Assembly (NCBI RefSeq): GCF_000003605.2 | Contig: NW_003130858.1 | Coordinates: forward strand, 39,819-79,904 | Reading direction: 5' to 3' | DNA: 40,086 nucleotides | DNA from: Saccoglossus kowalevskii | Taxonomy: Eukaryota > Hemichordata > Enteropneusta > Harrimaniidae | Shown here: positions 2,696-40,086 of the stretch, one piece after another | How positions within the stretch are numbered: the stretch's first letter is position 1 | How the letters are laid out: every line of letters starts with the position of its first letter | The notes under the pieces: model-generated | The model's input: the letters and a program-made list of their open reading frames with translations, nothing else | Databases searched by the model: none | Told to the model about the DNA's origin: nothing | Translations under genes and position numbers: made by a program

Positions 2696-3113
2696 TGAGT
2701 CACAAAACTGGTTTATTTTACTAGTGTACTTTCGATTACAATCCAAATTGTACAAAAACCTGAATGAAAACGTGGAAAATCAGTTGTTTTAATGATCCAA
2801 ACTGTACTCGACCCTGTATTTCAAATGGCGTTGAGTCAGTAAAAGGTGGGGAAGGTAATCTTTTGTTATGCTAATTTTTGTGTTTACGCCGCTCTATTCA
2901 CTGTGGATACGTTTCGTTTTCACGTGGAATAAGAATTAGTGTGTAGTCAATTTGAATTGTGTTGCGTTTGTAATTTTGGTATGCATTCAGTGTACAACTA
3001 CATACTATTCTTATAAATAGTCATGTTCAAGGGCCATAATCATGATCTTATAGTAGATTCAAGATTTTTTTTACTAGTTTTATCGAATTGTCAATATACT
3101 GGAATAATATATT

Positions 3114-3231
3114 AGCAATAACCCTCCGCCAAAGTTGGGTATACCACTTGATATTGCACAATTCACTCCATATATGTCGCGAATTGTGCAATTCCTCGTG
3201 GTATACCCGCCTTTGGCGGGGCGTTATCGCT
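3114..3231. repeat. fold-back hairpin, MITE-like
   Basis: Two 51-base arms (3114-3164 and 3181-3231) are inverted copies that pair at about 42 of 51 positions around a 16-base loop. The best-matched blocks are GGGTATACCAC and ATTGCACAATTC, and both arms contain CCGCCAAAG. It is more GC-rich than the flanks. The structure fits a fold-back transposable element, or a transcribed long hairpin. No obvious target-site duplication is visible. Confidence 0.7.
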
Positions 3232-3800
3232 TAAATAATTGCTCATTGAATTGATGGGTATGAGAGCTTGTAAGGGTGACCTACATATTCAGCGCCTGGA
3301 ATGACGTCGTTTACGGAATGTGCATTTGAAAGGTCTATAACAGTACGCATCTCTGTGGTGTTTTCTTTTGCACTGACAGTAATGGTGAAAAAGTTGCGGG
3401 AATGTTGAATGGGTTCTAGACAAAAGGACTAAGTAGTGCTCCAAGCTGTGTTTTTCCCTTATGATGTAGCTCTCTGTGTGTGATGTGAATGCAATTACGG
3501 ATGCATGGTTGATGTTGAGAGTTGGTGTGCATTACAATTGATGGGCCGACCATACTTTAAGAAGTAAACAATGATGTTGTCTTCGTAACTTATCGAATCT
3601 GAGCTCCATTGTGGAATGATGAAAGTAGAGGGTACTTAAATGCGTTATTTAGGATAGTTATATTTGCCTGAGTTAAAGACTCTATCGTGTGATTCTATCA
3701 AAGCATTGATGTCCAAATTGCATTTAGGTGGCCACGTCCTGAAGATGGCGGTATTGGGTAAGTATCAGTATTTGGTCGATGCAACGTAGAAGGCGAATTA

Positions 3801-6615: not shown

Positions 6616-6655
6616 ATGACTTCACTATTTGTGTTGTTGATTGTTTCTCATAGTG
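6616..6655 (+). CDS. candidate signal-peptide exon of the receptor kinase
   Basis: An ATG at 6616 opens a very hydrophobic stretch, MTSLFVLLIVSHS, followed by a possible donor (G|GTAGTA at 6656) in phase 1. Phase 1 is what the first base of every Ig cassette exon needs, so this exon could be spliced to any of them. A stronger donor (CAG|GTAAGT at 6718) lies 60 bases downstream, but the frame from this ATG meets TAA before it. The assignment rests on hydrophobicity and phase only; RNA evidence would decide it. Confidence 0.33.
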
Positions 6656-7001
6656 GTAGTATATTTGTTGACAATATTCACTAAAATGCACGCCTGGGAA
6701 TGTCCACTAATAACAGGTAAGTTGATTTTAATTGCAATGTTATTTATTGTCGACCCGAGATATTACAGAGGGTATATTCATACCTTTAGAATTTCTGTAA
6801 ACATCTAGTGCATTGAAACTGAACAATTTATACACGAATACTATTAGAAATATATGGCTAAAGGCCTAATACACGAGACGAATAACGAGCTAACGCATCG
6901 AACAATACATGGTCAACGCAGATGCCTCACAAGTTGAATAGTGTAAAACGGCCTTTAAAGCTGCCATACAAGGGTAATTAATGAGGCAATGCGTGACTTA
7001 C

Positions 7002-7130: not shown

Positions 7131-7957
7131 CTTTAGATGAAATGTTTATAGTATGCATTATAATACAACTAATAATGATGTGAATTTATGTACGCTAATT
7201 CAAGGTAGAGGTGCAGGGTGCACTCAGAGTGAAATATTTTTTTTGCTTTTTACTTACTCAGACAGTCTTGGCTAGATAGTATTAACATTTTGGAGCTTTG
7301 TCAATATTGAACATACTAAAAAGAAAAACGATTTTAAAATATAGGGATCCAAGTGCGCTTATGTGATTAAAAGTCCCGAAAGTTTGTTTGCGTTGCTCTA
7401 TGATTGACAACTAACGGTTGATGTTATCTACAAATGAGTTGCTGACCTCAGTTACGGGGCAGCGGTGTGTGACCTAATTCCTGATCTGGCTCCATGTTTA
7501 CTTACCTCAAGCATGGTCAACTAGCCTAGAAAATCACAAAAATACAGACAAGACGTAGACGCTTCCAGCATGTAAGCGGAATGAAACAAAACATACATAA
7601 GTGAATGATAAGTAAACTTCAGCCTTATCTCGCAACATGTCAACAACTTCTAGCCTAGCAGCTTCCAGTGGTATACTGTTTAAAATTAGATTTTTTATTC
7701 ATTTTATGTAGGAGGATGGCCCGATAGCGCGATTTAATTTTCACGAAAAAAACAAGGCCACGATTTCTTTTGTTTTATTGGTGCATAGATTTCAAGCTTT
7801 TTTTCATTGGGGCAAAACTTCAAAGGCAATTTTAACACTGAAGTAAACATTTTTTTCGCTGTAACGATCACCGTGCTGATGGAATTGTGATGCAATGGAC
7901 AAACACCACTGATGTCATCGTGTGTAAAATCGGAAATCTACCATTTTCTGTTCATAG

Positions 7958-8080
7958 AACTGAAGAAAGTGGAACTAATTATTGATAATAATTTGGTGCG
8001 TCGAGGTGATAATGTTAAAATGGAATGTGAGAACAACGATTCGGATGTAAAATACAGGTGGAATTTCAAGGGCAAATAAT
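7958..8080 (+). pseudogene. Ig cassette 1, exon a, frameshifted
   Basis: Encodes the first half of an Ig domain: strand-B cysteine in VKMEC and the core tryptophan in YRWNFKG. It is 123 bases where intact copies are 122. An extra A in GGCAAATAAT, against GGCAATAAT in the other copies, creates an in-frame TAA just before the donor. Splicing to exon b would therefore be out of frame. It is either a damaged cassette or a homopolymer sequencing error. Confidence 0.8.
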
Positions 8081-11000
8081 GTAAGTTTGGTAGCTTGCTT
8101 ACCTGTTTGTAGTTCACTTTTGACTTGAAATATTACGGGTACATAATTAATGATATCGAAAATAGAATGTAGCATTTATAATGTCTTTCTCAGTCTTTCA
8201 TTTTTTTATTTTGTTTTTATCGACGTTATTTACAATAGCTGCCGTAATAGTCATTTCTTATTGAGTTCAGTTATTCTTTTCTGATCAGGACACAACGTTT
8301 AACTTACGAGCGAATCAATACAAAATTTATCAGATTTTCAACTTGTCGGATGTTGATTGTGGATACTATACTTGTCAAACATACACCGATTGTGGCATGT
8401 CGTCAATGTCAAATGTGGTGCATTTACAATTACATGGTGAGTATAACAAGGCACAGTTGTTCCTAGATATATACAATGCTGTATTATACATTTACTAAAC
8501 AGGCATAACGAATATCTACGTAGCTTTCTGAAATAATAAAGTGTCGACTGAACAACGATTGGCATTTAACACCTATTTAACACACGTCATCGTGAGTATC
8601 AATTGGAAATCCAACATTTTTTGTTTATAGACCAAAAGAAAGTGGAACTAATTATTGATAATAGTTTGGTGCGTCGAGGTGAAAGTGTTAAAATGGAATG
8701 TGTGGACGAAAATACAGATGTAAAATACAGGTGGAATTTCAAGGGCAATAATGTAAGTTTGGTAGCTTGCTTACCTGTTTGTAGTCCACTTTTGACTTGA
8801 AATATTACGGGTACGTAAGTAACCATTATCTAGGACAGAATGTAGCATTTATAATGTCTCCCTCAGTCTTTAATTTTTTTATTTTCTTATTATCGACGTT
8901 ATTGACAATAGCTGCCGTAATAGTCATTTCTTATTATTTTAGTTATTATTTTCTGACCAGGACACAACGTTTCACTTACTGGCGAATCAATACAGTATTT
9001 ATAGGATTTTCAACTTGTCGGATGTTGATTGTGGGTACTACAATTGTCAAACATTCACCAACTTTGGCATGTCGTCAATGTCAAATGTGGTGCATTTACA
9101 ATTACATGGTGAGTATAACAAGGCACAGTTGTTCCTAGATATATACAATGCTGTATATACATTTACTAAACAGGCATAACAATATCTACGTAGCTTTCTG
9201 AAATAATAAAGTGTCGACTGAACAACGATTGGCATTTACACCTATTTAACACACGTCATCGTGAGTATCAATTGGAAATCCAACATTTTTTGTTTATAGA
9301 CCAAATAAAGTGGAACTAATTATTGATAATAGTTTGGTGCATCGAGGTGAAAGTGTTAAAATGGAATGTGTGGACGAAAATACAGATGTAAAATACAGGT
9401 GGAATTTCAAGGGCAATAATGTAAGTTCGGTAGCTTGCTTACCTGTTTGTAGTCCACTTTTGACTTGAAATATTACGGGTACGTAATTAACGAATATCTA
9501 GGACAGAATGTAGCATTTATAATGTCTCTCAAAGTTCTAAACGTTTTTATTATCAACGTTATTCACAGGAACTTGATGAGATAGCCATTTCTTGTTATTT
9601 TAGTTATTTTTTTCTAATCAGGACAACCCGTTTCGCTTACTGGCGATTGGATATAATATTTATCGGATTTTCAACTTGTCGGATGTTGATTGTGGGTACT
9701 ACACTTGTCAAACATACACCAGAGTTGACATTTCGTCAATGTCAAATGTGGTGCATTTACAATTACATGGTGAGTATAACAAGGCACAGTTGTTCCTAGA
9801 TATATACAATGCTGTATTATACATTTACTAAACAGGCATAACAAATATCTACGTAGCTTTCTGAAATAATAAAGTGTCGACTGAACAACGATTGGCATTT
9901 AACACCTATTTAACACACGTCATCGTGAGTATCAATTGGAAATCCAACATTTTTTGTTTATAGACCAAACGAAAGTGGAACTAATTATTGATAATAGTTT
10001 GGTGCGTCGAGGTGAAAGTGTTAAAATGGAATGTGTGGACGAAAATACACATGTAAAATACAGGTGGAATTTCAAGGGCAATAATGTAAGTTCGGTAGCT
10101 TGCTTACCTGTTTGTAGTCCACTTTTGACTTGAAATATTACGGGTACGTAAGTAACGTATATCTAGGACAGAATGTAGCATTTATAATGTCTCTCGAAGT
10201 TCTATACGTTTTTATAATCAACGTTATTGACAATAACTTATATATATATAAACATTTCGTATTTAGTTTAGTTGTTCTTTTCTGATCAGGACACAACGTA
10301 TCGATTACTAGCGAACAAATACAATATTTATCCGATTTTTAACTTGTCGGATGTTGATTGTGGGTACTACACGTGTCAAACTTACACCGACTGTGGCATG
10401 TCGCCAATGTCCAATATCGTGCATCTACAATTACAGGGTGAGTATAACAAGGCACTGTTGTTGGTTGATATATACAATGCTGTATCATACATTTGCTATA
10501 CATAATGTCGACTGAACTATGCAATCACCATAAGATTGCACCTAGTCATTACATTTGTGAAGTAGTGTCAGTGTCTTGACAATAAGGCTGTCATATATTA
10601 TGTTCTGAATGTTTGTACATAATAGATATAATGGCAATGATTCCTCCACCTCAAGGAGGATCAAGTGAAGATTCAATATCTTTGTTGGCTATCAGTATAA
10701 TTGCAGGGAGCATTGTGGCATCGATGACAACTGCTGTATTTCTTATCATAATTGGGCACAATAAGTACATGCAGAATGTAAGTAGAATAACCATGGTTTT
10801 TGATTCGTTTGGTATTTCATTCATTCCATTTTATTTATTAATTATATATTTGTTTCATTTACAGAAAAATAAGGAACACTCTGAAAATAGACAAGTTATT
10901 GAACAGTCACGACGAGACCAGGAAGGGCTACATACAAGAGAACATCTCTCGGTTAGTGAACTGTTGCTTGTAATCGTACTGATGTAAATATTAGTTTTTA

Positions 11001-14000
11001 ATACGGTACACATGAATGTGTATGTTAACCACGTACTATATCAGCATTCACATTAGATTGAACTCGTAAATTTCCCGATCAATGGCGAATGCCGAATAAG
11101 AAATGACGTGTTGATAGATTCAACAGTTATTGGCGAGGTAAACTATTGTAATATAATAATGAACATTTCATTACCCTGAGGTAGTATTACATAATTTGAA
11201 TATTTAGTCCTTACATACACAAGGGTATTTACAGGCAAACCAGACACTAAATAGAAACAGTATTATGAGTATTCGATAGCATTTGACGTTACGGCGATTG
11301 CCTTACCTACACTGCTGACATTTCTCGATCACAGACAGAAGACTATGGTGCCTGTATGTGACTTACCAAAACTCAAATAACCGCAAAATGTTTTGTTTTG
11401 CCAGACGCTACCGTATTGGGTATGATCAGTTTTTTACAGTCCACCAAAGTATGCTTTCACGGTGTCTCCGCTTTGAATTTAGAACAAGCAAACGCGATGA
11501 CTTCAACTCGTATCACAACTCCTAGATCATCAACATTTCTTGTTACTTCAATTAACACTATACAACTATGTTGTATGNNNNNNNNNNNNNNNNNNNNNNN
11601 NNNNNNNNNNNNNNNNNNNNNNNNNNNTTTTCGAAACCTTTTTTTCACAGCATCAATTTTGAACGCAAATCTGATGATATAAATACACATAGTCCGCAAA
11701 GAGCTTATTATTAGCTACAACTCAGTTTTAACTCCCATTTTAAAAAAATGGAGGCCGCGAACGTGCGTCTATTAATTATAATTAACTACCTACATATATA
11801 TACATAATGTTGTGTTCATCGTGGATAAATTGAAAGTGAATCGATTATTTTTGAGTTTTTTACGGCATTTGCTGTAAATATAAATTTGTACAACGTCGTT
11901 GTTACACATACACATGTAATCAGTTAACATTTGTTCAATTATTTCGATTATTGAAGGTTGACGGGTCTCATCAGAACGAGGAACATCGTTCTGAAAATGA
12001 TGTCGATATTCAAACATTGGCTAACTTTTCACATGCAAAATCATGCGAAGTTTTACAACCATTAATTTGTGATGAGTGGGAATTTCCGCGGCAAATGTTA
12101 CATTTTCAAGGAATGCTGTTAGGCCAAGGTGAATTTGGTGAAGTTCAACTTGCATATGCTGTGGACCCATCAGATGGTGATAAACAGACAAAAGTAGCTG
12201 TTAAATATTTGAGAAGTACGTACCATACAAACAAGTTTTTTAGATGAATGCAATAAATAAATTATCAGATACTCCCGAACTATAATAACAAATATTAGTA
12301 CTATAGTTTCGGCCTATCACTTACACTCCATATTCATTTCAGAAAACGCAACGGATGTAGATCGAAAAGACTTTTTGCAAGAGTTACGATTGATGAAGAC
12401 ATTCACTTCAGCCCATCCTAATGTAGTCTCTTTGTTCGGGTGCTGCACAAGTTCAGGTAAATTTACTTCTTTCAATGTGGTCAGTGCCATAGTCAGTTAA
12501 TGTACATTAATAGTATATTTTTATTTTTTTATTTCTTAGATCCAGTTTATATAATTCTCGAATTCGTGAAAAATGGCTGCTTACAGAATCATTTGAGAGC
12601 AAGCCATTCAGCACTAATCTACCAGAATTTACATCAAAATGTAAAAAATGTAAGCTCCTGGGATCTCTTACATTTTGGCTGGCAAGTGGCCAAAGGAATG
12701 AGTTTTCTTGCATCAATGAAGGTGAGAAGCGTACAATATCTTCTGTGACTTGAAACTATAAGCTTGTACAGTAATACAAGCTTTAGTATTTCTGAATATG
12801 CAAATGTATATGAACTAGGAGTGACATTTTGGTTTAATACTGTATGATAAAGGTATATATGCATAACGACCGTAAAGAAGGATAGTTACTCATTGAAATA
12901 ATTTTGCGAACACACATTCCATGTATGCTTTAGCATTGACTTTTATATGTAACCTAAATTAGAAGGTCACATTAGAAAATGCCCATCAATTGTGAAATAC
13001 TATTGCCACTTTTATTTAGATACTGAACATATATGACGTTACTTTATTGTTTAATATTGCCATGCTGAATGTGTCATATGAAGAACGTGCTCGCCGAGTT
13101 TTTAGCTATTATATTCGTAGATCAGTACAGAACATGCAAAATCACTGTGACTTCCAAAATACATACTCTATGACATTTTGTTATGAAAATGTACACAAGT
13201 GTGTCACATGGAATCACCTCTTTCTTTTATCATATAAAAGGCATACATAAACATATACTGTTGTCTCGATCTTTGTTCCGAAATGTTGCAAGTTCTAGTT
13301 TGTGAAAGCAGTTATCTAGATGTACTATAATATATTTGCGTGGCAAATTACAGGAAGTAGTTACAAACATGGTATATAGATATATATATTTGTTACGTTA
13401 AGTTGCTTAGTGTTGTGCAGTGTTAAAAGAGCTCATGGTACACACAACTGGGTAAATTGTATACTTTTTTTCTATAGTGTATTCATCGGGACCTAGCAAC
13501 AAGAAACATCTTACTCGACGAAAACAACACTTGCAAAATTTCGGACTTTGGCTTTGCTCGTGATGTGAAAGGTACAGACGTCTACCAGAAAAAGACACAG
13601 GTGACACTTATTTGATTATTTTTATCGTTTTTTTTAACTATCAATCGAGAGGAAACTTTTAAATAGTAATAATGTTTAAATTTACCTTTTAAAGGGAAAA
13701 CTACCATTGAGATGGATGGCAATAGAATCATTAAATCACTCATATTATTCTTCAAAAAGTGACATATGGTCCTATGGTATTGTCTTGTGGGAAATTGTTA
13801 CATTGGGTATGGATACTTTCAACTTTAGTATTCTTTCCGATTATACTAACAATTTATTGGATAGTCTCTGCATACATAATTAGTTTTTTGAACTTTACAT
13901 GTCTGTCGTAATTTTTTCAACAACAATGAGGCGAAGCCTAAGTCAATATCTCTCATTCTCAACAAGTAAAATCACTATAATAATTATTAGAAGCAAAAAT

Positions 14001-16139
14001 CAAATCAACCAAATAATGTAATGAATATATAATTATTCATTCATTTGTTGTGATCCATGTTGTTCAGAGTAAACACGACAACAACAAAATATGTGTTGTC
14101 TGTGTCAATACTTTTTTTACTCATATAATATTAAACAAATAACATTACTTCACAATAATCTGACATGTCAAAAAATATAAAAATAGACAATTAACAGCAC
14201 TATAATAGGGTAATAAAAGAGAAGAGAAGGGGGAAACGTGAGAAAAAATGATTAGGGGGTTGTTGTGTTTGTGGGGGGGGGGTGTAGGTTCATTACTTTT
14301 CTTTTACAAATTATTGGATGGCATTGATTTACAATAACTGCAAGGTAAATAAACTTATAAAAATAACTTACAAATATCCTTCAATCACTTGCAGTACTTT
14401 GCCCCATTTTTTTCAAACTTATTTTCAGTTAAAACATATTTGTCAATGTTAATTAAGTTTCTGATTTTATCTTTAATTTATGGAAATATTTATTTTACTT
14501 ACCCATTATCAATTGTATTATGAACATTTTGTTCAATTACATGTACATAGTCGTTAGTTTTTTTCCAATTTGGTGGTATTGCCGAAATAATATATGTCTA
14601 TGTTATAAAATTCACAGCAATATTATATTTGTCAGTAAACTGATCGCAAGTAAGAAATTCATCATTATTATCTAACAAATTACTTATGTATCTTATGTCT
14701 ATGTATGATGTTTCATTTACTGTAATAAACAGAGGTCCCATTTATCAAACTATATAAATATTATTCCAATTTTTTGCGCTACAATTTTATGTACACAACT
14801 TAGTTCTTTCTGCTCGTTTATCTCACTCACAATATCTTATAATATCCATGTAAAAGGAGCTATTTATTTGGCCCCAATCATAATTGTACTGGAGTAAAAA
14901 TCTCAAACCCCCATAATACAGCTGAATACAGCTATATTTTATGTTGTATGTGTGTGTCAATAGTTTGTTACTCGAATTTGAGTTGAATCTCAAATTAGAT
15001 AGTTTATTATATTGAAGCGTTGCTGGTATGGGAGATTACAATTTATATTCTAATCCAGTGTTTTGAAATAAGAGCAATATAAAAAGTGGTTTAAATATGT
15101 TGCTATTTCAAGATACACTACCATATTTTGTGTTATACACCATATAGGATCTACGCCATACGGTACTATGCCATCAGCCCAAGTTATCAACGAAATAAAT
15201 CGTGGATACAGGTTACCAAGACCAACACATTGCAGCCGTGAACTGTAAGTAGAGAATTTGGGCTTAATGTTTCGTTCGAAACAATATTTCGTAGGATTAG
15301 TTACTGAGTTATTTCATCATCACCCAGGTATGACATCATGGTAGGCTGTTGGAATGTGCAGCAGGAAGAAAGACCAACTTTCTCGCAACTTTGTTCACGG
15401 GTTGGGAAACTTGCCGAGAATCATAGACGGGTAAGTTTTTTGGGTAATAATCCCTCTGCATATTGTATGATTTCACCACGTACTATGGCGTGCAATAATG
15501 ATAACTTACACAGTAATTTGATTACTGTACGTGTTAGAACTATATTGTGTTTTCATCAAAACGGAATAGACAGAATATAGAGAAAAAAAATAAGTTTCGA
15601 CTACACTGTTTAACCCCATGTTTAAATATGATATGGTACCATTATTATGCTACCATTATTTTCGGTCCAAGAAAGACTTCGTTCGCATTACTAGGCACAT
15701 TTAAACTGCATTCTATTCTGTTTTCCTGTCTGGTTATGCCCAGAATATTATAAACATATATCGTTATAATTATATATAACAAAAACATTGACTCAGATCA
15801 CCGTACGTTACTTTAAGTATGATTACATAGCACATGGTATAAAATTCTCCAAATGCTATTAACTCGTAAATATCCTATGCTACATATAGTTCGAAATATG
15901 TGGAACATTGCTGACTCTTTATTTTACTGTTCCCGGTTCATTTCGGTTGGCACGCTTCTCGGATGTGCACGAAACATGTAATTATATATAAAGCTAGGAA
16001 TGAAAGTTATAGAAAAAAAGTCAGTTGAATGTGAATATTTTGGTTCTGTTTTCTCCACTAGGAATATTTACATCTGGATATGTTTGAAGAAAACCTATAC
16101 GTGAATATTGATAACAATCACAATGATGAAAAATTATGA
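7958..16139 (+). CDS. Ig-domain receptor tyrosine kinase, whole gene span
   Basis: A membrane receptor with an extracellular Ig module, one transmembrane helix and an intracellular tyrosine kinase. I assembled it by splice sites and phases: Ig exons a/b (four copies), TM exon 10626-10777, juxtamembrane 10865-10951, kinase 11957-12215, 12343-12456, 12540-12721, 13478-13600, 13695-13806, 15148-15244 and 15328-15430, and tail 16062-16139. All junctions from cassette 4 to the stop are in frame. The kinase has all core motifs ([21 protein letters not shown]) and reads as a class III/IV/V-like animal receptor kinase, nearest in feel to FGFR/VEGFR/RET. Cassettes 1 and 3 carry frameshifts, so a productive mRNA must skip them, or the assembly has indel errors. 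The 5' end is uncertain. Confidence 0.88.
8289..8436 (+). CDS. Ig cassette 1, exon b
   Basis: 148 bases, phase 0 in and phase 1 out, open throughout. It carries the second half of an Ig domain: [19 protein letters not shown] holds the D-x-G-x-Y-x-C signature with the strand-F cysteine, plus two extra cysteines. The acceptor is GATCAG and the donor ATG|GTGAGT. Confidence 0.82.
8631..8752 (+). CDS. Ig cassette 2, exon a
   Basis: 122 bases, phase 1 in and phase 0 out, intact. It encodes [19 protein letters not shown], the strand-B cysteine and YRWNFKGNN. The acceptor is TTTATAG and the donor AAT|GTAAGT. This is one of the two cassettes with no lesion. Confidence 0.88.
8961..9108 (+). CDS. Ig cassette 2, exon b
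   Basis: 148 bases, phase 0 in and phase 1 out, intact. [18 protein letters not shown] keeps the strand-F cysteine and tyrosine-corner motif. It lacks the third cysteine found in cassettes 1 and 4 (Phe instead). Differences from the other copies cluster around this F-G region. Confidence 0.88.
9300..9420 (+). pseudogene. Ig cassette 3, exon a, frameshifted
   Basis: 121 bases, one fewer than the intact copies. The missing base is near the 5' end (CCAAATAAAGTGG, against CCAAACGAAAGTGG in cassette 4), which puts a stop a few codons in. The rest of the exon, including the cysteine and tryptophan codons, is preserved at the DNA level. It is either a damaged cassette or an assembly indel. Confidence 0.8.
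9622..9769 (+). CDS. Ig cassette 3, exon b
   Basis: 148 bases and open, but the most divergent of the four. The N-terminal part and the segment after the strand-F cysteine ([10 protein letters not shown]) differ, and the third cysteine is lost. The D-x-G-x-Y-x-C motif is intact. Its partner exon a is frameshifted, so this exon may no longer be used. Confidence 0.78.
9964..10085 (+). CDS. Ig cassette 4, exon a
   Basis: 122 bases, phase 1 in and phase 0 out, intact. It differs from cassette 2 at few positions ([10 protein letters not shown] against [10 protein letters not shown]). It is the copy nearest the transmembrane exon and, with its exon b, gives an uninterrupted reading frame into the rest of the receptor. 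Confidence 0.9.
10290..10437 (+). CDS. Ig cassette 4, exon b
   Basis: 148 bases, intact. It contains [20 protein letters not shown], with the strand-F cysteine in D-x-G-x-Y-x-C and flanking cysteines on both sides. It ends CAG|G with a GTGAGT donor. The last G joins AT of the next exon to give Asp, leading into the membrane-proximal linker. Confidence 0.9.
10626..10777 (+). CDS. transmembrane exon of the receptor kinase
   Basis: 152 bases, phase 1 in and phase 0 out. A short polar linker ([11 protein letters not shown]) is followed by about 25 hydrophobic residues containing [20 protein letters not shown] and then LIIIG, with a basic stop-transfer side (HNKYMQN). This is a classic single-pass segment of a type I receptor. 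The donor is AAT|GTAAGT. The joined Asp codon from cassette 4 fixes the frame. Confidence 0.88.
10865..10951 (+). CDS. juxtamembrane exon of the receptor kinase
   Basis: 29 codons, phase 0 at both ends, with acceptor TTTACAG and donor TCG|GTTAGT. It encodes a strongly charged cytoplasmic stretch ([19 protein letters not shown]) and continues directly from the TM exon. A further juxtamembrane exon could hide in the next intron, which holds the assembly gap, but phase 0 to phase 0 allows direct joining to the kinase. Confidence 0.72.
10988..11956 (+). other. intron with 50-N gap
   Basis: The intron between the juxtamembrane and first kinase exon. It contains an unresolved run of exactly 50 N at 11578-11627, so its length is only nominal. 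An open frame across the gap (11398-11682) depends on the N run and is not credible as coding. Confidence 0.7.
11957..12215 (+). CDS. kinase exon 1: ATP-binding N-lobe
   Basis: 86 codons plus one base. After an acidic juxtamembrane tail comes the receptor-kinase entry motif [12 protein letters not shown], the glycine loop [14 protein letters not shown] and the catalytic lysine in VAVKYLR. The exon begins after TTGAAG and ends AGA|A with donor GTACGT; an alternative donor lies four bases downstream but breaks the frame. The order and spacing are normal for animal receptor tyrosine kinases. Confidence 0.93.
12343..12456 (+). CDS. kinase exon 2: helix C region
   Basis: 114 bases, phase 1 in and phase 1 out. 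It encodes [12 protein letters not shown], with the helix-C glutamate, then [14 protein letters not shown]. It joins the previous exon to complete a lysine codon. The acceptor is ATTTCAG and the donor TCAG|GTAAAT. Confidence 0.93.
12540..12721 (+). CDS. kinase exon 3: hinge to helix E
   Basis: 182 bases. [18 protein letters not shown] is the gatekeeper, hinge and helix-D segment. A short kinase insert follows, then the helix-E motif [19 protein letters not shown]. The insert is only about 20 residues, shorter than in PDGFR/VEGFR-type kinases and closer to FGFR. The donor is AAG|GTGAGA, phase 0. Confidence 0.92.
13478..13600 (+). CDS. kinase exon 4: catalytic and DFG loops
   Basis: 41 codons, phase 0 at both ends. 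It carries the catalytic loop [10 protein letters not shown] and the magnesium motif in [11 protein letters not shown]. The activation segment has one candidate phosphotyrosine, [16 protein letters not shown] (Ala-Thr-Arg) marks it as a tyrosine kinase. The acceptor is CTATAG and the donor CAG|GTGACA. Confidence 0.94.
13695..13806 (+). CDS. kinase exon 5: P+1 loop and helix F
   Basis: 112 bases, phase 0 in and phase 1 out. It encodes [13 protein letters not shown], the tyrosine-kinase P+1 loop with IES in place of APE, then [20 protein letters not shown] with the helix-F aspartate. It ends TTG|G with donor GTATGG. Confidence 0.93.
13900..14945 (-). mobile_element. LINE reverse-transcriptase relic inside a kinase intron
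   Basis: On the minus strand the 1341-base intron reads as the C-terminal part of a non-LTR retrotransposon polymerase. A GGLRF-type segment lies at about 14900-14920. At about 14530-14735 come [20 protein letters not shown] and, after an in-frame stop, [10 protein letters not shown] and DYVHVIEQ. This resembles the region after the RT fingers/palm in LINEs of aquatic invertebrates. Stops and frame changes show it is dead. The part below about 14300 looks non-coding and may be its 3' UTR. Boundaries are approximate. It is antisense to the host gene. Confidence 0.6.
14229..14282 (+). other. G-run cluster in the intron
   Basis: Three G tracts, about five, five and ten bases long, lie within some 54 bases on the plus strand. 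This is strikingly different from the AT-rich intron around it. The ten-base tract can supply more than one G-stack, so a G-quadruplex is possible. On the element strand it is a C-rich stretch of the LINE tail. Confidence 0.45.
15148..15244 (+). CDS. kinase exon 6: helix G region
   Basis: 97 bases, phase 1 in and phase 2 out. [16 protein letters not shown] is followed by [16 protein letters not shown], the standard receptor-kinase helix-G and following loop. The acceptor is TATAG and the donor CT|GTAAGT. Confidence 0.93.
15328..15430 (+). CDS. kinase exon 7: helix H-I, end of kinase
   Basis: 103 bases, phase 2 in and phase 0 out. It contains [20 protein letters not shown], with the conserved CW and RPTF that close the tyrosine-kinase domain, then [14 protein letters not shown]. 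The strong donor CGG|GTAAGT argues against the open read-through that would otherwise run to 15580. Confidence 0.93.
16062..16139 (+). CDS. C-terminal exon of the receptor kinase with YVNI motif
   Basis: After a pyrimidine tract and CCACTAG acceptor, 25 codons and TGA follow in the exact phase (0) left by the last kinase exon. The encoded tail includes [20 protein letters not shown] fits the pY-x-N consensus for Grb2-type SH2 domains and YLHL is a second candidate docking site; both are read from sequence only. An acidic, Asn-rich end (NNHNDEKL) precedes the stop. The tail is very short for a receptor kinase. A retained-intron end at 15580 is the alternative. Confidence 0.68.
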   Translation, partial: EYLHLDMFEENLYVNIDNNHNDEKL

Positions 16140-25199: not shown

Positions 25200-26150
25200 T
25201 GAGGAAAATAAACTAACTATCCACGTCGACGTCAAACCAAAAGTTAGCAAAATCCTCAGCTTTCTTATGCAAAGCATTGTGGATTCAAAAACGCCACCAA
25301 TGACCAAAACCACATTTAACCAGACACAATGGAGGGCGCTATTGAATTGAATTTCTAAATCAAAATACATTTAAATCTTTTTGTAATATTTTATATTTAA
25401 TTAATGCCTTACATAACACATACACTAATACTGTCAACATGGTGCCAGACATCAATCATTCCTCATAATCACTACTCAATGAGAATAATGTATAATACTC
25501 ATGTAAAGACAATTCACCATGTAAGCAACGAATAAACTATAACAGACTAAGTACCAATAATATACAATTCTGATATCCAATGGGTTGATACCTGCCTGCG
25601 ACTATATCATTTATCTGAGCACCGATCAGGACTATATCAATCTGTCGTAAATGGCACTTCATTTTGCTATTCAACAGTGGCGCTAGACGGCCAAGTGTTT
25701 TGCATTAGTTGTTTCACCACTATTTTTACACTGACATTTCACTATGTAAACTTGAGCATAATATGTAGCTACCAATGATGATCAGACATGTATGTACAAA
25801 ATGTGTGTAATGTAACCACTTACTACCTATTGAAATACAATTAGTGTATAGTAACAAATGCGTAAACAATGCTTGTGATATTTCACATTCCTTGTCCATC
25901 ACGACGCCTGGCATAATAGTCAAGATAATTGATAACAATATATATCATACGAAAACACAGGTACTCGTGTACGAGGGTAAGACAAATTATGATTGATGGC
26001 AGTAACCAATATTCAATATAAACTACATTTTGCAAATATACAATGTTCAAATTTACTTCTTATTGGTTTATCATTCTTCTACATATAAAGTTACCCCTGC
26101 AAAAAAAGTTTTAAGCAGTAACATGGTGGAAATTTACTTTCACGTGCAAT
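25200..26150. other. intergenic or intronic, nothing recognised
   Basis: AT-rich sequence without a supported exon. It precedes the filamin/NXPE-like exon and may include that gene's upstream intron. Confidence 0.5.
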
Positions 26151-26164
26151 ATTTTGTTTTCTAG

Positions 26165-26656
26165 AGTGTATGTGTATGGTAAACGCAAGATATTTAAAAA
26201 GGGAGACACGGTACATATAGTGGTAGAAGCATATGATAAATACTGTAATGCAAGAAAGAAAGGTGGGGACTTCATTCAAACAATAATGTCAAATAAAGAA
26301 CTTGTTAAAAGCATAGCTGGACGAGTATTTGACTATGGCAATGGTACGCATTCTATGTACTTCTATGCTGCCTTGGCTGGGAAGCAATTATTGATGTTAT
26401 TAAGCCATTTTCACGAGAGTTCATACTGTATATGAACAATGTACTGAGGCACAAAGAGCTCCGTTCACCAAGGGACCGCGATTATGGAGATGTAATTCAC
26501 ACATATAAGGGTGTTTGCTTCTTACTCAACGATCGTTCGTGTGTACCTATGAAAAAATCTTGTCTTGATCTTGTGAATGTTACTGCTTATACTACATACT
26601 TACACAGGGTAGCATCCGAAGAAGTGGCAGGTGCTGATTATTTATTCAAGGAGTAA
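26165..26656 (+). pseudogene. filamin/NXPE-like domain exon with a frameshift
   Basis: After a TTTTCTAG acceptor the frame reads VYVYGKRKIFKKGDTVHIVV, EAYDKYCNARKKGGDF and AGRVFDYGNGTHSMYFYAAL: the beta-sandwich of a filamin-type Ig repeat in the form seen in NXPE-family proteins (GDxxxVxVEAxDxxxNxRxxGGDF...G.V.DY.NGTY...F). Shortly after AALAG (near 26381) the frame is lost. The continuation is in the next frame (IIDVIKPFSREFILYMNNVL, then VCFLLNDRSCVPMKKSCLDL) to a stop at 26656. One extra G in GGCTGGGAAGC would restore continuity, so this is either a pseudogene lesion or a sequencing indel. A possible donor (GCAG|GTGCTG, about 26630) has the phase needed by the exon at 29686. Confidence 0.6.
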
Positions 26657-27139: not shown

Positions 27140-28060
27140 TCGGAAAATATTTAATTTTATTGCTAGGTTTTCTATGTATTCTGTATATAATTGGTACACA
27201 TTTAATGCCATTGCTAGGAGCGGTAAATATTCTGTATATAATGGGAACATATATAATATCGTTACTAAAACCAGTACATAATATGTATATAATGTGGTCA
27301 TGTATATTGTCAATCCAAGGACCAGTATGTAATCTGTATATAATTGGGATACATTTAATATCACCACTAGGACCAGTATATAATCTTAATATATTGGGGA
27401 CATATTTAATGCCATTCCTAGGTCCAGCATATGATCTGTATATAATGAGAACACATTTAGTGTTATTCCTAGGCCAGCAAATAAGATGTGTATAAAGGGT
27501 ACACATTCAATTTCGTTGGTATAACCAGTATATATATATAATGGCGATATATTTGATGATATCGCTATGACCATAATACAATCTGCATATATGCGAACAT
27601 ATTTAATGTTATTGAGAGGACAAGTTAATAACGTTTATATAATGGAATATATATAATCTTATTGATATGACCAGTATGTAATCTGTATATAATGGGAGAT
27701 ATTGAATATCATTGCTAGAAAAAGTATATAATTTGTATATAGTAGGGACATATTTAATGTCATTGCAAGACCTGTATATAATCTGTATATAATATTTAAT
27801 GTCATTGCCAGGACCAGTATCTAATATGTAAATGATATGCACATGTTTCATGGCATTGCTAGACCTATATATAATCTGTATATAATATGACAAAATTAAT
27901 GTCATTGCTAAGACCTGTATATAAACTGTATATAATGTGGACATATTTAATATCATTGCTAGAAATAGTATATAAATCGTTGTTAATGAGGACATATTTA
28001 ATGTCATTGCTAGACCTACCATATAATAAGTATATATTATTTATTAGTATATCTCATGAC
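27140..28060 (+). repeat. AT-rich minisatellite, block 1 (~50-bp unit)
   Basis: About 18 imperfect tandem units of roughly 50 bases, built on GTATATAATCTGTATATAAT, then GGACATATTTAATGTCATTG, then CTAGGACCA. Frames stay open on both strands across long parts because the unit has few stops. These are not genes. Confidence 0.88.
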
Positions 28061-28490: not shown

Positions 28491-29575
28491 TGTATAATGT
28501 AATGTGTACTTGAGGAAGACATTTTTAATGTCATTGCTAATACCTGTATATAATCTGTATATAATGTGGACATATTTAATATCTTTGCTAGAAAGATACA
28601 AAAAATGTCGTAATGTCGTTGCTAGGACTAGTATATAATCTGTATATAATATTTAATTTTCATTGCTAGAACCGTTATATACATTTAGTGTCATCGCTTG
28701 AGTCGGTATATAATCTGTATATATATATTGAAATATTTAATGTTATTGATTGGACCAGTATACAATCTGTATATAATGAAATACATGTTATGTCATTGTT
28801 AGGCCCAGTATATAATCTGTATATAGTATTTAATGTCATTGCTAGGACCAGTATATAATATGTATATGACGTGGACATATTTAATATCTTTGCTGGAAAG
28901 ATTTAAAAAAAAATATATAGTAGGGACACATTTAATGTCGGTGCTAATATATAATATTTAATTTCATTGCTAGAACCGTTATATACACTTAGTGTCATCA
29001 CTTTGGTCAGTATACAGTCTGTATATAATGAGATACATTTAATGTCATTGCTATGACCAGTATCCAATCGGTATATGTTGTGGAAATGTTTAATGTCATT
29101 GCAAGTATCTGTGTATAACTTTCGTATAATGTGACATATTTAATATCAATGCGGGAAAGAGTATATAATTTGTATATAATAGGGACACATTTAATGTCAT
29201 TGTTAGGCCCAGTATATAATCTGTATATAATGAGATACATTTTATGTCATTGATAGGACCAGTATGTAATCTGTATATGATGTAAACATACTTAATATCA
29301 TCACTAGAGCCGGTAAATAGTCTGTATATAATTGGGATATATGTAATGTCATCGCTCTGACCAGTTCATTATCTGTATATATTGGGAACATATTTAATGT
29401 AATTGTTGAGACTAGTATATAATCTGTTTTTAATGTGAAAATATTTAATATCATTGCTAGGGCCGGTATATATTCTGTATATAATTGGGATACATTAAAT
29501 GTCATCGCTATGACTAGTTCATTATCTGTATATAAGAGATACACTTTGAACGAATTGATAAGACCTGTATAAACG
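28491..29575 (+). repeat. AT-rich minisatellite, block 2 (~50-bp unit)
   Basis: About 21 further units of the same repeat. Well-aligned examples at 29170-29320 measure 51, 50 and 50 bases. Unit variants lack parts of the GGACATATTTAATGTC segment. The block lies between the filamin-like exon and the downstream plus-strand exons, so it is probably intronic. Confidence 0.88.
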
Positions 29576-35672: not shown

Positions 35673-35906
35673 CTACTTCTTCAAACCTTCCCATATATTT
35701 GGTATTTGTTGTGCTAAATCAGCCCGATCAATTAGGTTTAAATATTTCACAAGACGCGTGAAATTGTCACGTTGACTATTAATGATTCCGTGCTCATGAA
35801 GCTTAATTATAAAGTCTACGCCAGTCTTTATGTCTTCTCGGTTATTCTTTTTTATGTCGTTTATGATTAACGCTTTCAGATTGTTGAGTTCACTTGTACG
35901 AAACAT
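35673..35906 (-). CDS. death effector domain exon
   Basis: The minus-strand frame encodes helices 2-6 of a death effector domain, an adaptor module of caspase and apoptosis or innate-immune signalling. Read in order: ELNNLKALIINDI (helix 2), DIKTGVDFIIKLHEHGII (helices 3-4), NFTRLVKYLNLI (helix 5) and DRADLAQQI (the R-x-D-L motif and helix 6). The frame ends with TAG after EGLKK; a GTAGGT at the same place could instead be a donor. ATG at 35906 gives a start, but helix 1 would then be missing. A helix-1-like segment lies in the exon at 36015-36077. An acceptor-like CAAG sits inside the ATG region, one base out of phase with that exon. Confidence 0.7.
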   Translation of the reverse strand: MFRTSELNNLKALIINDIKKNNREDIKTGVDFIIKLHEHGIINSQRDNFTRLVKYLNLIDRADLAQQIPNIWEGLKK

Positions 35907-36014
35907 TGCATTTGTTAAACAAAATTAATCACCCTAACTTCTTTCAATAGTACAAATAATTGTAGATTACGTTAATGAAATTAACACTACATAAAATCAA
36001 TATATTGCTCTTAC

Positions 36015-36077
36015 GTTCGCCTAAATCTTTTCCGACCTCAAGTGCAAACTCCCCGATTGGATTGCGACAGTGATGTC
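36015..36077 (-). CDS. upstream exon with helix-1-like segment of the DED gene
   Basis: 63 bases, phase 1 at both ends, with minus-strand acceptor AAAACTAG and donor GAAC|GTAAGA. It encodes HHCRNPIGEFALEVGKDLGE. EFALEVGKDLGE has the pattern of DED helix 1, so together with the exon at 35673-35906 it could complete the domain. The phases, however, miss by one base at the only AG near the downstream exon. Either a small exon is missing, a different site is used, or the gene is damaged. Its 5' half is duplicated at 36249-36268. Confidence 0.5.
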
Positions 36078-36430
36078 CTAGTTTTGAGGAAGAACAAGTG
36101 AAGGAACAAAACTTACGTACTTTGATTGTCTGTTATTCATGCTTCATTGTTTGCCTGTTTTATTGAGTCTAATGCTAATACAAGTTATACTACAATAGCA
36201 GCTTTTATTGTTTGCAATTTTATTTCATTAATTGTATTATTCGATTGGATTGCGACAGTGATGTCCTTGTTTTGAGGAAGAACAAGTGAAGGAACAAAAC
36301 TTACGTACTTTGATTGTCTGTTATTCATGCTTCATTGTTTGCCTGTTTTATTGAGTCTAATGCTAATACAAGTTATACTACAATAGCAGCTTTCATTGTT
36401 TGCAATTTTATTTCATTAATTGTATTATTC
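36055..36430. repeat. 188-bp tandem duplication
   Basis: Two head-to-tail copies, 36055-36242 and 36243-36430, differ at only two or three positions (for example CCTAGTTTT against CCTTGTTTT). The unit starts inside the small exon at 36015-36077, so the second copy contains the acceptor and only the 5' part of that exon. In the second copy the acceptor reads CAAG instead of CTAG. Confidence 0.92.
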
Positions 36431-36719
36431 GATTAGCTGAATATACCGCAACAATGTGGATATGTTTACCTGTATCTGAGGAACTGTCATGTGGTGTAGC
36501 TGGTATATTAATTGATGTTCCAGATTGTATAATTCATTATTGTCTTGAAACAAAGTTTAAAAATAAAGCAAAAAAAAACCCATAGGCATAATACATGAAA
36601 AAGTTTTTTAGATATAAATGGTAGTTACGCTATTCCATGTTTTTACGTATCACTGCATGACATCGAGTTTATAAAGAATAACCGTGCGTAACCGTCGCGT
36701 AACCATCAGATTATCCGAT

Positions 36720-38255
36720 GGGGTAACCGTCGCGTAACCGTCAGCGGAATCACTTTGTTTGTCGTTCGATTCGTTCAAAGTAAATCAACGGAAATCTTTG
36801 AAAAAAAAAACGCCGATTTCGACTCAACGTTTATAGCGCATACTTCTAAATAACCGCTGATTAGATTGGACGGAAGAAACGTAAAAGCAGAAATACACGC
36901 CAATTTACGTTGAAATTGAAACGACATGTGTGGCACCAATGTCAGACAAAACCAAGTAAGATTTGTTTTCTCTGAGATGATTGGACTTACAAACATAATT
37001 TAGTGGTCATAGGTTTAGCGAAGATGTGGGTTAAACCCAAAAAATATCAAAGGCCACTTTACAAAATGTCAATAGTTCAAGTGTTCAATAGACAAACATA
37101 CACAATTTAGCCTGAAAAGATAAGGACTGTAGAGGGCGCAAAACTATTTAATCGTGTAAGCCATGACATTGTAAAGCATGAATTGTACGGTGTAACTGGA
37201 CATGTGTTCGGCGAAGGCGCAATAACAGAAATAATTTTGTAAAAAGGCACTACGAATACGTATGTTATAAATTATTATTATACATCTGTCAACGTAACGC
37301 CATATTTATAGCGTGCCGTACATTTGCGGTATTTTACGGGGTATTTCCATCATAACATATAAGGAAATGTGAACATGGAATGATTATCCGCGTAAGCTGC
37401 GCGTCGGTCGATACTCCAGCTGCACTGTCTTCGTGAATACTCTGAAGTAATCACGTAATAATCTCATATTATATGTCGCTATGTTGGCATGTTTATGTAA
37501 TGTATATTTACAGTCGCTGAACAAGCACTCCGCCACGATCGTATCAATGCGTATTAGTTCCAAACAGCATATACAACACCATCAAACACATGTGCACCTA
37601 ACACACAAATATATAGTTGATGCACGGACGATGACCATAAATTAGTAAATTATAAATTGATTAGTTTGAAATATATTTCTAGAGTCTTTAAACCAGACCG
37701 CGCAAGCAGGTTCATGTGAAAAGTGAATGATAACTATCATGCTAAAGCATTAGCGCCGCAGTACTGGGGTATTTCTGATAAATAAGTTGAACGTAAAACA
37801 ACGACACACACTGAGTTGCCGGTCAATTTACGCTGAAAGTATAAAACGGGCAACTTAAGTTCAGTGTAAAACGACAGCAAATTTAGGAATTTTCACTGTT
37901 TACGCTGAACGTATAAAGCGCACAACTTCGAAATTTACGTTTCAGTTTCGACGGTTACGCGACAGAAATTCGAACGTATATTTATCCAAATGTTTACAAC
38001 GGTTACGTGATAAAACATGTCGCAATCCGGCAAGCAGTTACGACGGAAATTTTAATTTTAATACAATGCATGTCAAATCATTGACAACTGTCTGAACAGT
38101 TTTTAATATAGAAATATTCAATATATAATATTTACAAAAGTCGCTATTTGCACTCCCTTTTGAATTGACATTTTTGGACTACATAACACCAGCTGAAATG
38201 TTTTCTTCATCAATGAGTGGTACTTTTTTAGGTGCAATAATAAAACAAGTGTTAC
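36720..38255. repeat. 1.8-kb tandem unit, copy A
   Basis: Starts GGGGTAACCGTCGCGTAACC and recurs at 38521 with offsets of 1801-1803 bases. Within it the left end (GTAACCGTCGCGTAACCGTC) and sites near 37960-38045 (GACGGTTACGCGACAG, ACGGTTACGTGAT) are inverted to each other. Short motifs such as TTTACGCTGAA and GTATAAARCG recur inside. This looks like a non-autonomous DNA transposon or complex MITE that was duplicated together with its right flank. No transposase is recognisable. Open frames inside, such as the minus-strand frame at 36775-36996, are not conserved as proteins. Confidence 0.88.
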
Positions 38256-38473: not shown

Positions 38474-38515
38474 CTATTTCTGACCGACAATTTGTAAGTG
38501 AGATTTTATATGCAT
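38474..38515 (-). CDS. candidate mini-exon of the DED-type gene
   Basis: 42 bases on the minus strand, acceptor CAACAG and donor ATAG|GTTAGT, phase 1 at both ends. It encodes AYKISLTNCRSEI and joins in frame to the exon at 38293-38403. NCRSEI recalls HCRNPI in the exon at 36015-36077. It is short, so support is limited to splice signals and phase. A copy with one base deleted occurs at the very end of the window. Confidence 0.3.
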   Translation of the reverse strand: MHIKSHLQIVGQK

Positions 38516-38520
38516 CTGTT

Positions 38521-40086
38521 GGGGTAACCGTCGCGTAACCGTCAGCGGAATCACTTCGTTTGTCGTTCGATTCGTTCAACGTAAATCAACGGAAATCTTT
38601 GAAAAAAAACGCCGATTTCGACTCAACGTTTATAGCGCATACTTCTAAATAACCGCTGATTAGGTTGGACGGAAGAAACGTAAAAGCAGAAATACACGCC
38701 AATTTACGTTGAAACTGAAACGACATGTGTGGCACCAATGTCAGACAAAACCAAGTAAGATTTGTTTTCTCTGAGATGACTGGACTTAAACACATAATTT
38801 AGTGGTCATAGGTTTAGCGAAGATGCGGGCTAAACCCCAAAAATATCAAAGGCCACTTTACAAAATGACAATAGTTCAAGTGTTCAATAGACAAACATAC
38901 ACAAGTTAGTATGCAAAGATAAGGATTGTAGAGGGCGCAAAACTATTTAATCGTGTAAGCCATGACATTGTAAAGCATGAATTGTACGGTGTAACTGGAC
39001 ATGTGTTAAGCGAAGGCGCAATGACAGAAATAATTTTGTAAAAAGGCACTACGAATGAGTATGTTATAAATTATTATTATACATCTGTCAACGTAATGCC
39101 ATATTTAGAGCGTGCCGTAAATTTGCGGTATTTTACGGGGTATTTCCATCATAACATATAAATAAAGAAATGTGAACATGGAATGAATATCCGAGTAAGC
39201 TGCGCGTCGGTCGATACTCCAGCTGCACTGTCTTCGTGCATACTCTGAGGTAATCACGTAATAATCTCATATTATATGTCGCTATGTTGGCATGTTTATG
39301 TAATGTATTTTTACAGTCGCTGAACAAGCACTCCGCCACGATCGTATCAATGCGTTTTAGTTCCTACAGCATATACAACACCATCAAACATATATGTAAC
39401 AAACAACAAATATATAGTTGATGCACGGACGATGACCATAAATTAATAAATTATAAATTGATTAGTTTAAAATATATATTTCTAGAGTCTTTAAACCAGG
39501 CCACGCAAGCAGGTTCGAATGAAAAGTCAATGATAACTATCATGCTAAAGCATTAGCGCCGCAATATTGGGGTATTTCTGATAAATAAGTTGAACGTAAA
39601 ACAACGAAAAACACTGAGTTGCCGGTCAATTTACGCTGAAAGTATAAAACGGGCAACTTAAGTTCAGTGTAAAACGACATCAAATTTAGGAATCTTCACT
39701 GTTTACGCTGAACGTATAAAGCGCACAACTTCGAAATTTACGTTTCAGTTACGACGGTTACGCGACAGAAATTCGAACGTATATTTATCCAAATGTTTAC
39801 AACGGTTACGTGATAAAACATGTTGCAATCCGGCAAGCAGTTACGACGGAAATTTTAATTTTAATACAATGCATGTCAAATCATTGACAACTGTCTGAAC
39901 AGTTTCTAATATAGAAATATTCAATATAGAATATTTTCAAAAGTCGCTATTTACACTCCCTTTTGAATTGACATTTTTGGACTACATAACACCAGCTGAA
40001 ATGTTTTCTTCATCAATGAGTGGTACTTTTTTAGTGCAATAATAAAACAAGTGTTACCTATTTCTGACCGACATTTGTAAGTGAGA
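38521..40086. repeat. 1.8-kb tandem unit, copy B
   Basis: A close copy of 36720-38255 with scattered substitutions and small indels (for example the A-run near 38602, eight against ten in copy A). Near 40055 it jumps from CAAGTGTTAC directly to CTATTTCTGACCGAC, which in copy A are separated by about 220 bases containing the exon at 38293-38403. The window ends in the sequence that precedes the next unit start in copy A, so a third unit may follow. Confidence 0.88.

Follow-up and report, generated by a model that had tools for sequence, protein, structure and literature searches.

Four tandem Ig units ahead of a tyrosine kinase

In a gene of Saccoglossus kowalevskii, four tandem copies of one two-exon immunoglobulin (Ig) unit lie ahead of a putative transmembrane (TM) exon and a tyrosine kinase, with nearly identical junctions between neighbouring units and clearly diverged cores within them. 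On balance, the sequence leads us to favour modestly a receptor kinase in which the tandem-duplicated Ig modules would be spliced constitutively, the junctions having been homogenised and the second exons kept different. The analysed window comprises 40,086 nt (34 % GC, two N runs) and corresponds to C2265:39819-79904 of a 572-Mb assembly in 4830 contigs. Within it, positions 7914-10502 contain four direct repeats with a spacing of 661-673 nt, upstream of the TM exon and the kinase. Self-comparison by blastn at a shift of one unit aligned 7914-9834 with 8586-10502 at 91 % identity over 1932 columns, which rules out chance repeats. Every unit represents one Ig domain on two exons, A followed by B:

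7958..8080, plus strand: unit 1 exon A, 123 nt, with an additional A and, as assembled, a TAA in frame
8289..8436, plus strand: unit 1 exon B, 148 nt, open, entered in phase 0 and left in phase 1
8631..8752, plus strand: unit 2 exon A, 122 nt, intact, entered in phase 1 and left in phase 0
8961..9108, plus strand: unit 2 exon B, 148 nt, open
9300..9420, plus strand: unit 3 exon A, 121 nt, lacking one base and, as assembled, with a TAA in frame
9622..9769, plus strand: unit 3 exon B, 148 nt, open
9964..10085, plus strand: unit 4 exon A, 122 nt, intact
10290..10437, plus strand: unit 4 exon B, 148 nt, open

Exon A thus measures 123, 122, 121 and 122 nt in units 1 to 4, and exon B has a constant length of 148 nt. 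The canonical unit of 270 nt is entered in phase 1, interrupted in phase 0 and left in phase 1, with an exon A of 122 nt (phase 1 to 0) and an exon B of 148 nt (phase 0 to 1). The three inter-unit introns span 191-194 nt, the inner introns 201-208 nt.

A hand-assembled protein of units 1 and 2 matched Pfam Ig_3 at E=3e-12 (Ig_3 and Ig_2 above the cut-off), and unit 4, as part of a hand-assembled unit-4/kinase protein, gave a Pfam Ig match below the cut-off (E=2e-4). In the PDB, unit 4 retrieved titin (E=1e-7) and neurotrimin (E=2e-4), and a search with the Ig unit returned no FGFR at E up to 10. Among ten single-exon ORFs scanned alone against Pfam, three exon B ORFs had no family, and the unit 3 exon A ORF reached Ig_3 only at E=0.065. 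Three of the four upstream ORFs had no Pfam match, and the fourth (6641-6805) had two DUF matches with E between 0.05 and 0.08. Rfam returned no match at the gathering score, and tblastn confirmed no relative among four pattern matches in IMG/VR and 24 in GTDB contigs. An earlier sequence-only reading of this DNA had proposed an array of Ig cassettes in a receptor tyrosine kinase, and the array itself is real, with four tandem copies, each of them Ig-like.

Leader, transmembrane segment and kinase

The remaining parts of the gene were delimited as follows:

6616..6716, plus strand: candidate leader (signal peptide) exon or exons, by eye, uncertain
10626..10777, plus strand: transmembrane exon, entered in phase 1 and left in phase 0, by eye, in agreement with tblastn
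10865..10951, plus strand: juxtamembrane exon, by eye
11957..12215, plus strand: juxtamembrane / first kinase exon with glycine loop and VAVK, boundaries by eye
12343..16139, plus strand: remaining kinase exons and C-terminal tail to the stop TGA, with HRD, DFG and WMAIES, boundaries by eye

Positions 10626-10777 encode, by eye, a hydrophobic stretch between the Ig units and the kinase, which we regard as the putative TM segment. The leader admits two competing readings by eye, with the donor between 6655 and 6656 or between 6716 and 6717, both of which end in phase 1. The earlier expectation that the array is flanked by phase-1 boundaries stands, by eye, for the entry into the TM exon, and stays uncertain for the leader. 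A gap of 50 N (11578-11627) lies in an intron of the receptor gene and could hide an exon.

The kinase domain matched Pfam PK_Tyr_Ser-Thr at E=1.6e-93, its catalytic motifs are present by eye, and it looks intact and FGFR/RET-like. Among the best 60 of 773 rows of the PDB comparison, FGFR1 scored 272 bits, FGFR2 262 and RET 258, the top of the list being a chain with two EGFR kinase domains of 175 bits each. A genome-wide search with the kinase listed at least 104 matches, 10 on the window's own gene and 94 outside, and these many related tyrosine-kinase-like exons suggest a large kinase family. Among the matches listed, two contigs carried the closest gene-like groups elsewhere, C2390 with 57-72 % and C4445 with 38-71 % by piece. 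An Ig-like stretch was seen by eye ahead of the kinase on C4445, and 4.1 kb upstream of that kinase contained no copy of the Ig unit; no copy was found either in 5.4 kb upstream of the C2390 kinase, 3633 bases of which are N.

A single-copy relative elsewhere in the genome

Throughout the 572-Mb assembly, with the best candidates scored, the only other copy of the Ig unit was found on contig C4141, where it has the same two-exon layout:

C4141, 37338-37459: exon A, 122 nt, open frame
C4141, 37601-37748: exon B, 148 nt, open frame

Its inner intron has 141 nt, and by eye an open stretch of hydrophobic, TM-like character lies downstream of it. A tblastn search with the kinase of the present receptor over the whole 63.6-kb contig gave nothing at E up to 0.01, and C4141 is absent among the 104 matches listed in the genome-wide kinase search, for which 97 of 200 first-look candidates were scored. 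The C4141 copy is likely to be a kinase-less, one-Ig receptor using the same module. On C2265 itself, neither the Ig unit nor the kinase recurred in 1-39900 and 79905-189904. The comparison of C4141 with the four units covered exon A, the inner intron and exon B; they differ by 17-20 % in exon A, 20-21 % in the first 64 columns of the inner intron, 18-31 % in the rest of that intron (82-83 columns align) and 9-15 % in exon B.

Near-identical junctions and diverged cores

Divergence within the array is mosaic. Three segments that join neighbouring units are almost the same sequence:

8437..8812, plus strand: junction segment 1/2, comprising the inter-unit intron, unit 2 exon A and the first 60 nt of the inner intron
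9109..9480, plus strand: junction segment 2/3, in which four one-base deletions (9156-9307) and two substitutions are private
9770..10145, plus strand: junction segment 3/4, from the alignment of the junctions

Thus, 8437-8812 is ~99 % identical to both 9109-9480 and 9770-10145, and the junctions of units 2-4 differ pairwise at 3/372, 4/376 and 3/372 sites (~1 %). The cores of the same units, taken as the inner intron from alignment column 65 onwards together with the initial 108 nt of exon B, show 41/244, 42/244 and 41/244 differing sites (~17 %). This disparity is highly significant (Fisher 1e-14; 1e-11 to 3e-10 for noncoding sites alone). Across all four units, the cores are 12-21 % apart pairwise, and the edges of the array, namely unit 1 exon A and the end of unit 4 exon B, were not homogenised with the rest.

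It had previously been stated that the introns are almost as similar as the exons. Such uniformity does not exist, since the inner introns are 9-17 % apart and the three inter-unit introns are separated by no more than one substitution and by three one-base deletions. Likewise, the description of the array as young applies to the junctions but not to the cores, and a uniformly young array can be rejected, as the cores of units 2-4, with their ~17 %, approach the distances to the C4141 copy in the inner intron and exon B. Since core divergence is close to that distance and the junctions differ by about 1 %, the copies look old, with junctions that would have been homogenised recently. Furthermore, both exon A and the start of the inner intron have diverged from C4141, so that their identity among units 2-4 points to homogenisation rather than slow mutation. 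We propose that repeated unequal crossing-over or gene conversion keeps the inter-unit intron, exon A and the inner-intron start nearly identical, a process that we infer from its product.

Near-identical junctions of ~375 nt, one of them with a cluster of deletions, may also raise suspicion of an assembly artefact, in which the copy number or order of the units would be wrong through collapsed, expanded or haplotype-mixed repeats, and the N gap further on in the receptor gene adds to this. However, four distinct cores with 12-21 % pairwise divergence are hard to obtain by duplicating one stretch, and the genome searches, with the best candidates scored, gave no unit beyond that on C4141. We regard a wrong number or order of units as highly improbable.

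Reading frames and one-base lesions

As assembled, units 2 and 4 are intact, and units 1 and 3 are broken in exon A. The additional base of unit 1 leads to a TAA just before the donor of the exon, the missing base of unit 3 to a TAA near the exon start. Exon B is open and free of indels in all four units. The proposal that all four units begin and end in phase 1 is hence correct for units 2 and 4 and fails for units 1 and 3, and symmetric 1-1 modules before the TM exon of a receptor tyrosine kinase (RTK) are to the same extent present in two units as assembled and disrupted in the other two. The 1-1 symmetry was nevertheless probably the original design of all four, because every exon B is open and indel-free and the C4141 relative shows the same layout of 122 + 148 nt. 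By hand count, six in-frame ectodomain products can be made from the assembled sequence: A2B2, A2B3, A2B4, A4B4, A2B2-A4B4 and A2B3-A4B4.

The two lesions have different surroundings. Junction 2/3 carries six private differences with respect to the two other junctions, i.e. four one-base deletions and two substitutions. The deletions cluster at 9156-9307, and the last of them is the frameshift of unit 3; one of the substitutions adjoins this frameshift, at a site that differs in all three junctions. Junctions 1/2 and 3/4, in comparison, are four substitutions and no indel apart. As a control for indel rates we used a separate 1.5-kb duplication in the window, in which one-base deletions or indels account for 3/65 events and indels of any size for 6/65. 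At the control rate, at least four one-base deletions among six differences have P ~6e-5, or 9e-4 if any indel is counted, for a cluster that was noticed first and tested afterwards. Since the lesion of unit 3 sits within this cluster, it is a probable consensus error. In unit 1, the extra A is an isolated lesion that has no counterpart in the sibling units or the C4141 relative, and it could be real.

These lesions are also what would be expected of a decaying array with real frameshifts, in which units 1 and 3 are skipped pseudo-modules and the receptor displays two Ig domains (units 2 and 4) or uses an A2-B3 join. In-frame stops in exon A of units 1 and 3 speak for such decay, as does the absence of the unit 1 insertion from the C4141 relative and the siblings. 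Against it, exon B of units 1 and 3 has an open frame without indels, although it diverges by 9-19 % from that of the other units. Moreover, both units have splice sites that appear intact by eye, so that regulation would be needed to skip them, and the one-base deletions near unit 3 form a cluster of technical appearance. We consider decay quite improbable. In the serial-Ig receptor that we favour, the number of Ig domains would be up to four if both one-base lesions are consensus errors; should the assembly be correct and units 1 and 3 be skipped, two domains would remain, those of units 2 and 4.

Substitution pattern of exons A and B

Positive selection on exon B as a whole found no support, as its pooled pN/pS was 0.53 (bootstrap 0.30-0.96); single pairs nominally reached 0.95 and 1.53. 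When changes were polarised with C4141, 28 unit-by-codon replacements fell on 18 of 49 codons, some of them common to two or three units. None was inferred in any of the four units at the 12 codons 16-27, and the chance of sparing these codons is 1.5e-3 counted by distinct codons or 4e-4 counting every cell, the stretch having been chosen after the data were seen. In the alignment with titin, codons 16-27 cover the region up to Y-x-C of what we take to be the F strand, and the replacements in the units flank them, before (presumably the C'/D region) and after (presumably the F-G region and the G strand). Codons 16-27 are not inviolable, because the C4141 copy itself carries replacements at three of them (codons 19, 24 and 26); either this copy may be relaxed, or these codons may not be strictly fixed. 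The pattern of exon B fits ordinary structural constraint combined with free or diversified loops, and is no proof of selection by ligands. A comparison of indels in exon B and the inner intron was a weak test (Fisher p=0.07).

Exon A of unit 1 differs from that of units 2-4 by 9-10 nonsynonymous changes to 1 synonymous change, and against C4141 the units have a pN/pS of ~1.1-1.4 with small numbers. This nonsynonymous excess is suggestive. If the Ig domains are displayed in series, their exon A halves would be alike in units 2-4 and their exon B halves different, and the C'/D and F-G regions of exon B could give each domain a distinct face.

Constitutive splicing or choice among units

We suggest that the RTK ectodomain grew when a single two-exon Ig module with phases 1-0-1 was duplicated in tandem, and that the units are most likely spliced constitutively into a serial, putatively ligand-binding Ig stalk before the TM helix and the kinase. 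By eye, the splice sites are strong-looking and alike across the units, with donors GTAAGT and GTGAGTATAAC and acceptors TTTATAG or TTCATAG and TCAG/CCAG. As no visible sequence signal would choose one unit, the default expectation is that all intact units are included.

Alternatively, as the earlier reading envisaged, one or some of the Ig units may be selected by regulated splicing, which would yield ectodomains with different ligand faces or lengths. The 1-0-1 units are flanked by a candidate leader that ends in phase 1 and a TM exon that is entered in phase 1, and this symmetry is what cassette choice requires. In addition, the cores stayed different while the junctions were homogenised, and the identity of each unit resides in exon B, the counterpart of the half that is alternatively spliced in chordate FGFR IgIII (from the accessible part of PMC5703972). 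However, all units have similar splice sites, two are unusable as assembled, which leaves the six in-frame products, and two-exon units need coordinated choice, since the inner intron is in phase 0. We also looked for RNA pairing of the selector/docking type in four duplex comparisons with 30 mononucleotide shuffles each, a crude test in which none fell outside the shuffle range; three were within 1 sd of the shuffle mean, and the inner intron of unit 4 paired with the upstream intron ~2 sd more strongly, which would be in line with choice. From these features, regulated choice appears rather unlikely. We are equally doubtful of a cassette-array RTK in the broader sense, where interchangeable frames (exon A and the introns) would be held identical by gene conversion and the exon Bs kept different, the number and choice of spliced units would vary, and copy number would differ between individuals.

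Other features of the window

The window contains further repeats and ORFs. Positions 36713-38255 and 38514-40057 form a direct duplication of 1.5 kb (95.5 % identical), 36054-36434 is a tandem duplicate of a 188-nt unit (98-99 % identical), and two blocks of a ~51-nt satellite repeat occupy 27147-28036 and 28706-29535. An imperfect palindrome of 130 nt with 78 % self-complementarity is located at 3108-3237. On the minus strand, the ORF 35676-35924 scored above the cut-off for a death effector domain (Pfam DED, E=3e-9), and the ORF 357-899 has a weak phage-integrase-like match (E=0.006, below the cut-off) and is perhaps a tyrosine-recombinase transposon. A weak neurexophilin-like match (E=3e-5, below the cut-off) was obtained for the ORF 26115-26432.

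Comparison with known systems

With extracellular Ig, a TM-like segment and a tyrosine kinase, the gene resembles Ig-domain RTKs such as FGFR, PDGFR/VEGFR and the RTK of Geodia cydonium. FGFRs possess three diverged Ig domains; here, in contrast, the genome carries the Ig units as a tandem series of near-copies without a recognisable IgIII, in keeping with the lack of an FGFR match in the PDB. The Geodia cydonium RTK bears an Ig-like domain in its extracellular part, as cited in an available section of PMC12018476. Ig-bearing RTKs of marine sponges are upregulated after grafting (excerpt of PMC2248247), and one survey dates the kinase subgroup of FGFR/PVR to after sponges had branched off (PMC8662651, partial text).

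A closer parallel is the IgIII domain of FGFR, which is encoded in two halves, the second being alternatively spliced in chordates, with independent events in other Bilateria; the accessible text of PMC5703972 describes this region as a recurrent hotspot of alternative splicing across Bilateria. Both systems, as far as that text describes IgIII, have a TM-adjacent Ig domain in two halves with a variable second half, but in FGFR a half-exon is duplicated and chosen, whereas here the whole two-exon unit is repeated.

The arrays of arthropod Dscam1 and chelicerate sDscam are likewise made of tandem Ig-coding units, with symmetric phase in units 2 and 4 of the present array, although they belong to another gene family and here the array is part of a kinase receptor. 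In sDscam, two-exon cassettes encode one Ig domain and are each preceded by their own promoter, and excluding or multiply including some of the variant exons would keep the frame (available part of PMC4835542). In the present array, units 2 and 4 have no ATG before exon A in the stop-to-stop frames entering them. A further difference concerns the exon arrays of Dscam, for which the available text of PMC3236188 reports no sign of gene conversion among paralogous exons, unlike the homogenised junctions of the present array. The accessible parts of PMC11999971 and PMC8242945 contain nothing on tandem arrays, and the literature searched, in which subscription papers were mostly missing, yielded no description of an RTK with Ig cassettes arrayed in tandem.

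Serial Ig domains of receptors are usually too diverged to reveal their origin. With a single-Ig relative of the same exon layout and a four-unit array in one genome, the growth of an RTK ectodomain becomes directly readable, as does the opposition between homogenised junctions and the retention of different, putatively ligand-facing halves. If the units were indeed chosen by splicing, a signalling kinase would here be coupled directly to a diversity system of the Dscam kind.
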